NCBI GenBank assembly: GCA_030537195.1
Contig: JAUNOK010000017.1
Location: 1 to 55,255, forward strand
DNA from: Eubacteriales bacterium
Lineage (GTDB): Bacteria > Bacillota > Clostridia > Lachnospirales > Lachnospiraceae
Direction: 5' to 3'
Length of the DNA: 55,255 bases
Under the pieces are notes generated by a model, which had not been told where the DNA came from, ran no database searches, and worked only from the letters and a program-made list of their open reading frames with translations. Of the stretch, positions 47,318 through 50,374 are shown piece by piece (within the stretch, counting starts at the first letter, position 1; every line of letters starts with the position of its first letter). Position numbers and translations under genes: made by a program.

Positions 47318-47764
47318 TTATTTCTCAACAACTTTAACAGTTAATTCTGCTGTCACATCCTTATGAAGCTTAACCTGGATAATATAATTACCTAAAGACT
47401 TAATAGGCACATCAAGCTTCATTTTCTTCTTATCAATCTCAAGACCTAACTGCTTCTTGGCTTCTTCTGCAACTTCCTTAGTTGAAACAGTTCCGAATGT
47501 TCTTCCACCTTCGCCTGTCTTCATAGAAACAGTAACTGTGCACTCATTAATCTTTGCTGCAAGCTCCTTAGCTGCTGCAAGCTCTTCTGCTGCCTCTTTC
47601 TCTTCTCTCTTCTTGGCTAACTTAAGGTCATTAAGATTCTTCGCTGTTGCCTCGATTCCGAGCTTCTTAGGAAGCACATAATTTCTTGCATATCCATCAT
47701 TAATCTTAACAATCTGTCCCTTTTTTCCTAATGTCTTAACATCCTCTAATAAAATAACATCCAT
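47318..47764 (-). CDS. rplI: 50S ribosomal protein L9
   Basis: 148 residues. The N-terminal RNA-binding domain [21 protein letters not shown]-type opening and [15 protein letters not shown] are diagnostic; a long Lys/Glu/Ala helix joins it to the C-terminal domain. Start overlaps the gdpP stop (TAATG). Confidence 0.97.
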
Positions 47765-49827
47765 TATATTTCACCATCCTTAATCATATTATCAAGTGTA
47801 ATCTTAATCTTATTAATTGCCTGGTCAATTGTACAGTCAGTAAACTGTGCACCGGCAATACTTATATGACCGCCGCCACCCAGCTTTTCCATGACAAGCT
47901 GCACATTAACTTCATCAATAGACCTTGCACTTACATATATCTTATCCTCGTAAGGAGTGATAACAAAAGAAGCTTTAATTCCCGATATATCAAGCAGATC
48001 ATTGGCAGTCTTGGCTCCTCCAACAGTAGGTGTGTCAATTCCATCACCATTGAATATAGATATTGCAAATGCGTCCTTATACACCTCTGCACGGCTTACA
48101 GCCTTTGCAATCTCTTTATACTCATTCATATTGCTTCTAAGCATTTTTCTTACTCTTGTCACATCAGCACCATGTCTTCTTAAGAACGCTGCAGCCTCGA
48201 AAGTTCTTGGTCCTGACTTACTGTTAAATCCATCCGTATCAATATTAATTCCGGCATACAGCGCATCTGCCTCAAATGCCTTAAGCTTAATATTGTCATC
48301 AACATACTGTATCATCTCTGTAATCATCTCACTGGCTGATGAAGCATATGGATCAACATATGAAAGAACTGCGCCGGTAATTGTGTCGCTCTGTCTTCTA
48401 TGGTGGTCAAATACGACAACAGTCTTGCATTTCTCAAGAAGCTCAGGGCACTCTGTTCTCTGTGGTCTGTTGACATCAACAACAATAACAACTGTTGATG
48501 CATTTATCTTGGAAGGCGCATCCTCCGGCTTTATAAACATATCGTCCGGATACTCCTCCTTGCCTATGAATCTGTTCACAAAAGGTCTTACACTGCTTGT
48601 AACCTCGCCAAGAACAATGTGCGCCTCCTTGCCAAGCTTCCTGGCAATAATATATATTCCAAGTGCTGAACCAAATGCATCAATATCCGCAAGTGAATGT
48701 CCCATAACAAGTACATTACTGTTATTATCAAGAATCTGTCTTAAAGCATGTGCCTTAACACGAACCTTGACTCTTGTATTCTTCTCCATCTGCTGGCTCT
48801 TGCCGCCATAATAAAGAATCTTCTCTCCATCCTTGACTACAGCCTGGTCTCCGCCTCGTCCGAGTGCAAGATCCATAGCCGCCTTAGCCACATCATAATT
48901 CTTAGAATACTCTGCTGAACCTGTTCCTATGCCCATACTCAGGGTAAGAGTCATCTCATTGCCAATCTTAATGCTTTTAATCTCCTCAAGCAGACTGAAT
49001 CTGTCCTGCATAAGCTTCTCTAAGAAACTATATCTGAATACTACAATATATTTATCCTTCTCAAGCTTTCTTACGATTGCCGAACCCGGAGAAAAATACT
49101 TATTAACTCTCTTATCAATAAGACCTGCAAGAAGTGACCTTCTAACATCGTCAGTACTATCAAGGGCTTCCTCATAATTATCAATATACACAAGTCCTAC
49201 AACGAATCTTTCGTCCTTTAACTTCTGTATATATGTGTTGATATCTGTCTCATCAAAAAGATACATTACATACATTGAAGAATCCATGCTTTTCTCAATT
49301 ATATCGACACCATCTGCGATAGAGTCTGCATCAATATTCTTAAGTTCAGCTTTATAATCCCTGTCCTGAAATGTAAGTCTTATCTCCTTGAATCCAACCT
49401 CATCATCAGGAAATATACTTGGTGTAACTTCTGGAAGAATCGTATTGATATTCTTTCTGAAATCCTTCTTAACTCCCAGGCAGTCCTGCATTGCCTTATT
49501 GGTCCACATAACATTGCCATTATTATCAAGAAGGCAGTATGGCACACTGAGATTATACAAAAGCTGTTTCTGAACCTGTGAATAATTGGCTGCAAATTCA
49601 ACCATTCCAGACATTATTCTCGGCCTCATATAGAAATACATAAGCCCACATGCCAGCAGATATATAACCATGAAAATGCTTACGACTGTCGCCGCCATAA
49701 CATTAACACAGAACATAATTCCACATACAATAATCAGAATTGCCCCAATATATAATGGCCATGCAAAAAACGACCTCAGAAGTCCGCTATATTTAAATGC
49801 TTTTTTCCCATATTTGTTATCTGGCAT
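47764..49827 (-). CDS. gdpP: c-di-AMP phosphodiesterase GdpP
   Basis: 687 residues: two membrane helices (about 20-70), a PAS domain (around [17 protein letters not shown]), a degenerate GGDEF domain (around [16 protein letters not shown]), a DHH domain with [17 protein letters not shown] and VVFDHHRR, and DHHA1 with [14 protein letters not shown]. It hydrolyses c-di-AMP, which controls potassium and wall homeostasis. An ATG five codons upstream was rejected because its sequence contains the GGAG ribosome site. gdpP-rplI-dnaB form one operon. Confidence 0.95.
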
Positions 49828-49857
49828 AACACACATCTCCATAATCGAATTAGAGTA

Positions 49858-49886
49858 ATTATATCATGTCTGCAAATATACTACAA
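49858..49886 (-). promoter_or_regulatory. Extended -10 promoter of gdpP-rplI-dnaB
   Basis: TTGTAG, 17-bp spacer, TATAAT with a TGA extended -10 on the minus strand, about 30 bases before the ATG. The -35 is weak. Confidence 0.65.
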
Positions 49887-49929
49887 GCATACTTTGTGCA
49901 AGCACATTCTGGATTGCATGGCTCACTGC

Positions 49930-50058
49930 TGCGGGCAGCTCATATGCCAGAACTTCGTTCTGGCATTGTCGCGGCGCTCCTCGAGAATACATATAAAGTT
50001 CTCAGTTCGTGCAAGCACGACTGGGAATTTTATATGTATTCTCTCATCGCTGCCCGCA
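49930..50058 (+). repeat. Large multibranched inverted-repeat element, possible structured RNA
   Basis: An outer perfect 10-bp stem (49930-49939 with 50049-50058) encloses two hairpins. Hairpin A, 49944-49966, is a perfect 10-bp stem with a TTC loop. Hairpin B, 49983-50043, is a stem of about 28 bp with one bulged T and a CAAG-type tip. The two non-Watson-Crick pairs in B are G-U in plus-strand RNA but A-C in minus-strand RNA. A smaller TGTGC-AA-GCACA hairpin lies just upstream at 49895-49906. No protein-coding potential is evident. Confidence 0.8.
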
Positions 50059-50065
50059 CAAAAAA

Positions 50066-50093
50066 AGCCGTAACAGGTTTCCCTGCTACGGCT
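50066..50093 (-). terminator. Terminator of the rpsF-ssb-rpsR operon
   Basis: 12-bp stem AGCCGTAGCAGG/CCTGTTACGGCT (with one G-U pair) in minus-strand RNA, followed by seven T bases. Confidence 0.92.
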
Positions 50094-50110: not shown

Positions 50111-50374
50111 TTAGTCTACTGAATATGGAAGAAGAGCTACGTGTCTTGCTCTCTTAACAGCTACAGTAAGAGCTCTCTGATGCTTTGCACAGTTTCCTGT
50201 GATTCTTCTAGGAAGGATCTTTCCTCTCTCAGAAACATAATGCTTAAGTGTAGCAACATCCTTATAATCTAATACCTTGTTGGCATCTGCACAAAATGCG
50301 CAAACTTTCTTTCTTCTACGCATTGGTCTTCTTCTCATCTGACCCTCTGGTCTCTCAGCCTTCTTATCTGGCAT
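50111..50374 (-). CDS. rpsR: 30S ribosomal protein S18
   Basis: 87 residues. [39 protein letters not shown] and the following H-QR-L-V--RAR region are the S18 core. A zinc-type Cys pair (CAFC) is kept. Last gene of rpsF-ssb-rpsR; a strong terminator follows. Confidence 0.97.

Follow-up and report, generated by a model that had tools for sequence, protein, structure and literature searches.

A dispersed family of folded elements in gut Lachnospira, with one copy between rpsR and gdpP

The near-perfect inverted repeat between rpsR and gdpP is a member of a dispersed family of folded RNA-like elements in gut Lachnospira. It lies in the window, by which we mean the whole stretch of DNA analysed (55,255 nt), one entire contig of a genome of 2.57 Mb in 42 contigs (G000). 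On balance, and at slightly better than even probability, we read the family as a dispersed, structure-dependent, non-autonomous Lachnospira element docked at transcript boundaries, of which the window holds one copy. Clostridiales-1 (RF01699), the nearest Rfam family, and its unlisted relatives thereby become a testable object: a docking rule can be stated, the active strand is defined, recent copy events are likely, and both filled and empty sites exist.

The repeat, its copies and the rpsR-gdpP gap

The features of the gap all lie on the minus strand, the sense strand of the element:

50111..50374, minus strand: rpsR, the gene upstream of the element, with matches in 19 of 22 genus genomes, its own included
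50067..50092, minus strand: hairpin of the rpsR operon terminator, from the sequence
50060..50066, minus strand: T-run of this terminator, seven T, the docking point of the element, from the sequence and the docking test
49929..50059, minus strand (sense strand): whole element, 131 nt, matching model R1 at 143.1 bits (this copy is among those that built R1)
50049..50059, minus strand: outer stem, 5' arm (GTGCGGGCAGC), from fold and covariation
49983..50043, minus strand: long stem of 28 pairs with a CUUG cap at 50012-50015; both sides changed in 21 of the 28 pairs among nine copies
49944..49966, minus strand: small hairpin ATGCCAGAAC-GAA-GTTCTGGCAT, from a pattern test on 48 distinct copies
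49929..49939, minus strand: outer stem, 3' arm (beginning GCTGCCCGC), from fold and covariation
49889..49930, minus strand: 5' fragment of a Clostridiales-1-type element (AGCAGTGAGCCATGCAATCCAG...GTGCTTGCAC), matched by eye to elements of G002 and G017
49858..49886, minus strand: likely gdpP promoter, TTGTAG-17-TATAAT, downstream of the element, from sequence inspection
47764..49842, minus strand: gene downstream of the element, presumably gdpP (name from the first-pass annotation)

In the window copy an outer stem of 10-11 bp encloses two further helices, a 10-bp hairpin whose loop has 3 nt and a 28-pair stem capped by CUUG, in agreement with the outer stem, 10-bp hairpin and stem of about 28 bp described in the first-pass annotation. 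The multibranched inverted repeat is real and its stability is well beyond chance. Folded as RNA, a 151-nt stretch around the element reached -79.8 kcal/mol on the plus strand (z -12.0) and -75.7 kcal/mol on the minus strand (z -9.3), and on each strand 0 of 200 shuffles were as stable as the real stretch. An Rfam scan of the window at gathering score returned tRNAs only.

The repeat is not a lone palindrome: nine distinct strong copies, 72-100% identical to the query, were found at different loci of its own genome. A covariance model built from these nine (R1) recovered the same copies at 115 bits or more, together with five weak or antisense matches. When G000 and 60 relatives were searched, R1 matched in 14 of the 61 genomes at E<=0.01. 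Rich in strong copies were G000, G002, G017 and G019, with 11, 15, 17 and 15 matches when weak ones are counted, and the remaining matching genomes held divergent copies. The small non-autonomous repeat that the annotation had offered as one option is thus supported by both the copies at home and the matches in relatives. A 24-base core pattern occurred in 19 stretches of genome contigs, 18 of them titled Eubacterium, Lachnospira or 'Lactobacillus rogosae' and one an Actinomycetes MAG. The exact pattern was found 0 times in IMG/VR viral contigs, phage records gave no element match, and among plasmid records the element occurred only on the L. eligens megaplasmid (two records, identical around the three sites compared); viral or plasmid carriage was rejected on these counts. 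One copy in E. eligens (L075, G002:C1:1181639-1181768) lies directly behind 6S RNA and a terminator.

Homologues displayed strong RNA-type covariation, in which all three helices took part. Among the nine copies both sides had changed in 29 of 49 pairs, with a covariation score of 0.42 compared with 0.18 for shuffled and at most 0.12 for slid controls. In an alignment of 34 sequences, which was fitted to the model and is hence biased towards it, both-sided changes affected 49 of 49 pairs (score 0.79 versus 0.20). The annotation had asked for a choice between an RNA and a mobile repeat; the repeat stands, and the exclusive either/or is doubtful because this same repeat shows RNA-type covariation.

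The gap itself differs between relatives. In G019 it has no element, and the T-run runs straight into the gdpP promoter region, where the TTGTAG and TATAAT boxes are also present. In G000 a 5' piece of a Clostridiales-1 element (about 42 nt, 49889-49930) comes after the window element; by eye it matches the beginning of the complete Clostridiales-1 elements found in this gap in G002 and G017. In those two genomes the full element (83.7 and 82.0 bits) occupies the same T-run and is followed by a short tail resembling the 3' end of the window element (GCTGCCCGC or TGCCCGC) and then by a 5' piece. G009 has apparent element remnants. The Clostridiales-1-like fragment and the likely promoter just beyond it were absent from the annotation. 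Since the element lies between the rpsR terminator and this promoter, it would be transcribed mainly by read-through. The position of the promoter between element and gene makes a leader role for gdpP unlikely in the window, and the element is probably dispensable for gdpP.

Docking, probable copying and constraint in place

Docking was assessed on 69 loci drawn from most of the R1-matched sites. Searching them with R1 gave 54 matches at E<=1e-10, all from Lachnospira, and 52 were testable after setting aside two without upstream flank. In 46 of these, the start of the copy falls 0-2 nt after the T-run of an intrinsic hairpin terminator, compared with 98 of 6000 random positions in the same loci, demonstrating that the 5' end of the element is docked on the terminator T-run. 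By eye, the six failures comprise two second units of tandem dimers (L090, L110), copies behind a Clostridiales-1 element (L113), a remnant (L095) and an insert (L101), and one terminator with only four T (L098). The upstream units are highly diverse, and include tRNAs, 6S RNA, protein genes and the Rfam leaders T-box (two loci), SAM and ZTP, with SpF59/ldcC about 240 nt upstream.

Different element types were found in different species behind the terminator of one gene neighbourhood, both at the decarboxylase locus (L080/L099 versus L172-L174) and at L100/L119 (G017/G005), showing that one slot can hold different types. G002 and G019 have near-identical flanks at locus X078, where only G019 has a Clostridiales-1 element, placed inside the T-run ahead of the old copy. 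This element apparently split the T-run; the alternative is a loss in G002. At another locus, beside a gene that we take to be thiD, copies in G017, G000 and G019 share 95%, 94% and 92% identity, respectively, with the window copy; the copies at that locus are 92-95% identical among themselves. As it resembles the copies of another locus so closely, the window copy was probably copied between sites. Passage of copies between terminators, the window copy included, is strongly suggested. No target-site duplication was seen when filled and empty sites were compared at the rpsR-gdpP gap and X078.

Of 51 copies (orthologues counted separately), 28 are followed by a repeat of the element's own sequence that scores higher than any of 60 shuffles. 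Twenty-five of the 28 start at element positions 3-9, 21 of these within 3 nt of the junction, and their ends are variable; the other three comprise two that begin at position 14 and L007, where the 3' part is repeated. Upstream, own-sequence repeats were limited to 4 of 51 copies (two dimer second units, one remnant and one marginal case). Behind the window copy there is no partial unit of the same type. The downstream polarity fits copying outwards from the T-run; tandem duplication followed by decay would look similar.

Two unusual forms were noted. L116 (G019:C10:43700-43791), in the ZTP-riboswitch/IMP-cyclohydrolase slot, is a 92-nt snap-back version whose 3' half is approximately the reverse complement of its 5' half, so that the small hairpin is lost; its form suggests template switching. 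A third type of element, at L119, L106 and L086 (G005, G021), is preceded by a GCGCGAAGCTACGAGC stretch that looks like a fusion of the window type's two outer-stem arms.

For the non-autonomous element that we favour, a folded single strand, either RNA or single-stranded DNA, would be joined or copied onto the 3' end of the T-run exposed at a stalled RNA polymerase. The joining or copying enzyme would be supplied in trans, and copying would sometimes continue into a second unit and stop at random; the partial second units counted above lie mostly behind the element and rarely ahead of it. If mobile, the element would be short, structured and directed to transcript boundaries, with no enzyme known for it. 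Counting against it, no mover was identified, the two sites compared showed no target-site duplication, no partial unit follows the window copy, the core pattern is missing from the viral contigs, and both the empty gap of G019 and the missing Clostridiales-1 element of G002 could be deletions.

The search for a mover covered transposases and reverse transcriptases. Y1_Tnp (PF01797) had 0 hits in the element's own genome; across the genus 13 of 22 genomes had hits, which were patchy and in part broken. No reverse transcriptase was hit in the copy-rich G017 and G019, both about 93% complete. Both enzymes were rejected as movers, as their presence does not track copy number. The IS200-type loci of the genus (L194-L197) have only isolated 13-mers in common with the element; by eye, L196 and L197 lie shortly downstream of terminator-like hairpins. 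Group II intron matches were found at the reverse-transcriptase loci L198 and L199, and L200 holds another reverse transcriptase; R1 had no match in the genomes of these three (G003, G001 and G016). The sole RVT_1 hit of the element's own genome (L012, G000:C25:35381-35977, 430 aa) is on another contig, next to what looks like a variable receptor protein gene, and we take it to resemble the reverse transcriptase of a diversity-generating retroelement. A retron ncRNA was rejected, since this was the only RVT_1 found in that genome and no retron reverse transcriptase was.

Copies are conserved in place, under only mild structural constraint. Over 25 orthologous pairs from 15 loci, mean identity was 92% for the element (a value lowered by the inclusion of exchanged-element pairs), 90% for the terminator, 68% for the 60 nt that follow the element and roughly 82% for wider flanks. 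Between orthologous copies at least 80% identical, single changes kept pairing in 46 cases and broke it in 54, and double changes were compensated in 9 cases and uncompensated in 2. The next gene was co-directional at 23 of 25 selected element loci (one per orthologous site, crude ORF calling) compared with 21 of 35 terminators taken as background, by a different sampling rule, from some 138 kb of the element's own genome (Fisher p 0.007). Better conservation than the spacer and a co-directional next gene both fit a host function over a passive passenger.

These two observations are the first that speak for a serious rival, which we consider possible but on the doubtful side: a cis-acting structured RNA, spread by duplication and working in the transcript of the downstream gene. 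It would form the folded 5' end, or a processing or insulation point, of RNA arising from attenuator read-through, from a nearby promoter or after tRNA processing. In 41 of 48 copies a GCUUGC loop caps the long stem, and Rfam leaders lie upstream at several loci in Lachnospira and other genera, an apparent excess; at such loci the element must be co-transcribed with the gene behind. Outside the genus a perfect TATAAT stands 3-20 nt upstream at 16 of 69 loci, compared with 23 of 2851 random positions. Against a cis-acting role stand the likely gdpP promoter downstream of the window element, the lack of an element at the same site in the close relative G019, the great diversity of upstream contexts, from tRNA and 6S RNA to protein genes and leaders, and the near balance of pairing kept and broken. 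If cis-acting, the elements would form a 5' RNA module that is portable and occurs in gut bacteria behind T-box, SAM, ZTP and TPP leaders.

Clostridiales-1, look-alikes in other genera and known systems

An Rfam covariance search gave RF01699 as the sole plausible relative, below the gathering score of 48 bits: the window copy reached 45.0 bits on the minus strand and the best own-genome copy of its type 47.3. Hairpin-only microRNA models scored up to 43 bits on some elements of the same kind, and RF01699 scores therefore partly reflect the long stem alone. A true RF01699 member elsewhere in the genome (73.8 bits) lies behind a terminator-like hairpin and T-run. Clostridiales-1 RNA has in common with the window type the folded strand, a closing stem and a long stem capped by GCUUGC (from the RF01699 alignment), and it too is multi-copy in several Lachnospira genomes. 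Members at L013, L172, L173 and L175-L177 sit, by eye, directly behind a T-run, with two in the rpsR-gdpP gap. In contrast, the 3' domain of the RF01699 model, with further hairpins and conserved purine loops, is mostly deletions in the alignment of the window copy, and six high-scoring members inspected in G013, G015 and G018 did not start behind a T-run. R1 failed to recognise true RF01699 members (16 loci searched, best 18.6 bits), and for this reason the two families were not merged.

High-scoring Clostridiales-1 copies at L166 and L182 (G013), L167 and L183 (G018), L169 and L184 (G015), and L168, L170, L171 and L185 are preceded by mostly AT-rich, partly -10-like sequence instead of a T-run. 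Behind several of them a stretch is complementary to their own 5' end, as judged by eye. Clostridiales-1 is reported for Clostridiales and the human gut (2010, PMC2864571), Clostridiales-1 RNA or RF01699 is named in PMC3466250, PMC7302867 and PMC7682815, and the bare term Clostridiales-1 occurs in a pig-gut paper (PMC6808178). Our literature search brought up no reported function and no terminator docking for the family.

R1 at E<=1e-5 matched 23 of 397 Lachnospiraceae genomes, 21 of them outside the genus. In these 21, picked by their R1 match, a further model (R2) gave 2-21 matches per genome, some partial. The 70 out-of-genus loci analysed are the best-scoring rather than a random set, and nine were used in building R2. 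GCTTGC was present in 55 of the 70. A terminator lay within 25 nt upstream of 25 of the 70 (control 487/4000), and a -10 box of at least 5/6 lay 3-20 nt upstream of 24 (control 399/5000); only ten of these 24 were paired with a -35 box matching at least 4/6, and some of the imperfect -10 boxes overlap with the ends of genes. In a joint classification of 69 loci, four of which fall in two classes, 25 followed a terminator, 16 a perfect TATAAT and 16 the stop codon of an open frame, and 16 had none of these; the same classes held 347, 23, 305 and 2216 of the 2851 random positions. Docking outside the genus is thus clear for TATAAT, about threefold above random for terminators and only about twofold for stop codons. 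A scan of 40 of these loci with Rfam placed T-box (four, one at or above gathering score), SAM, TPP and four tRNAs ahead of the element on its own strand, and at 12 of the 40 the element also matched RF01699, always below gathering (29.5-46.1 bits).

Related elements at L207, L121, L122, L216 and L260 start within about 20 bases of the stop codon of genes that look like tuf and rplL. These genes are usually very highly expressed.

Because architecture and capping loop are shared, we tentatively consider, with distinctly less than even confidence, a superfamily of structured single-strand elements across Lachnospiraceae of which Clostridiales-1 RNA would be one branch. Its members would have a fixed 5' end and insert where DNA is held open or a transcript ends, namely at terminator T-runs, promoter -10 boxes and gene ends. 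The look-alikes may share a common descent. If true, the superfamily would consist of mobile elements that target the transcription bubble and move as folded RNA or single-stranded DNA on the non-template strand.

Known systems share some traits with the element. Group IIC introns are reported to insert just downstream of intrinsic terminators (PMC3240598, PMC7161350), the site occupied by 46 of 52 copies here. In contrast, the element has just 131 nt, and neither G017 nor G019 gave a reverse transcriptase hit. Such an intron would have a catalytic domain V (RF00029) and D1-D4, whereas group II models matched neither the window at gathering score nor, among the listed matches (E up to 5 and up to 1), the elements. 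Behind the T-run the element opens with GTGCG/GCGCG, which is reminiscent of a group II 5' end. REP/REPIN sequences with RAYT, and MITEs, are likewise short, palindromic, dispersed and non-autonomous, but the element is longer and multibranched and has a low copy number (9-17 in rich genomes). It differs further from the REP/RAYT system in that its own genome has no Y1_Tnp. As to MITEs, the element ends are complementary (outer stem), and the two sites compared showed no target duplication. Like integron attC sites, the element combines a conserved fold with freely varying stem sequence, and one strand matters; it differs in apparently having no attC boxes and in being docked on terminators, not between cassettes.

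RF01699 carries the Rfam type 'sRNA', which would suggest a stand-alone small RNA gene. The sense-strand fold with its covariation and the sub-threshold similarity to RF01699 speak for such a gene. We nevertheless hold it to be improbable: Lachnospira copies are directly preceded by terminators of many sequences, not promoters, no terminator of their own is evident by eye, and the stem sequence differs among copies.

The folded strand

Imperfect pairs were counted in 48 distinct copies (three of 51 distinct rows were skipped as truncated), and the scoring treats G-U and A-C equally. On the terminator-sense strand the long stem held 71 G-U, 14 A-C, 86 G-A, 1 U-C, 23 G-G, 17 A-A and 6 U-U pairs. 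Per copy, G-U exceeded A-C in 32, A-C exceeded G-U in 2, and 14 were tied. The outer stem displayed G-A 52 times versus U-C once, with G-U at just 26 versus 16 for A-C. In a pattern test the small hairpin was fully Watson-Crick in 28 of 48 copies, had tandem G.A in 20 and neither in 0; the outer stem was Watson-Crick in 23, had tandem G.A in 9 and something else in 16. The minus, terminator-sense strand gave the better fold in 43 of 48 copies; the copies are related, and strand p-values are not to be taken at face value. DNA parameters gave the same bias (42/48), which identifies the folded strand but does not separate RNA from single-stranded DNA. The sense strand also folded better at 61 of the 70 loci in other genera.

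If the repeat were an inert DNA palindrome whose near-perfect state is maintained by replication-linked correction, the long, nearly perfect arms and the simple 92-nt snap-back hairpin of L116 would be accounted for. This reading is quite unlikely, as a double-stranded palindrome is not expected to show the long-stem asymmetry between G-A and U-C, and the two short stems covary too.

The annotation had further proposed a plus-strand structured RNA lying antisense between two operons. Its observations on the window copy alone are correct: the two imperfect pairs of the long stem are G-U on the plus strand and A-C on the minus strand, and by eye the rpsR terminator hairpin shows the opposite bias, with G-U on minus. 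This copy does fold better on plus (-73.9 versus -68.2 kcal/mol). Over the 48 copies, however, the folded strand is the operon-sense minus strand, with mismatches that are mostly G-U and purine-purine on minus and the same minus bias in the other genera, and an antisense plus-strand RNA is rejected as very improbable on these strand counts; the annotation was misled because the window copy is one of the five exceptions.
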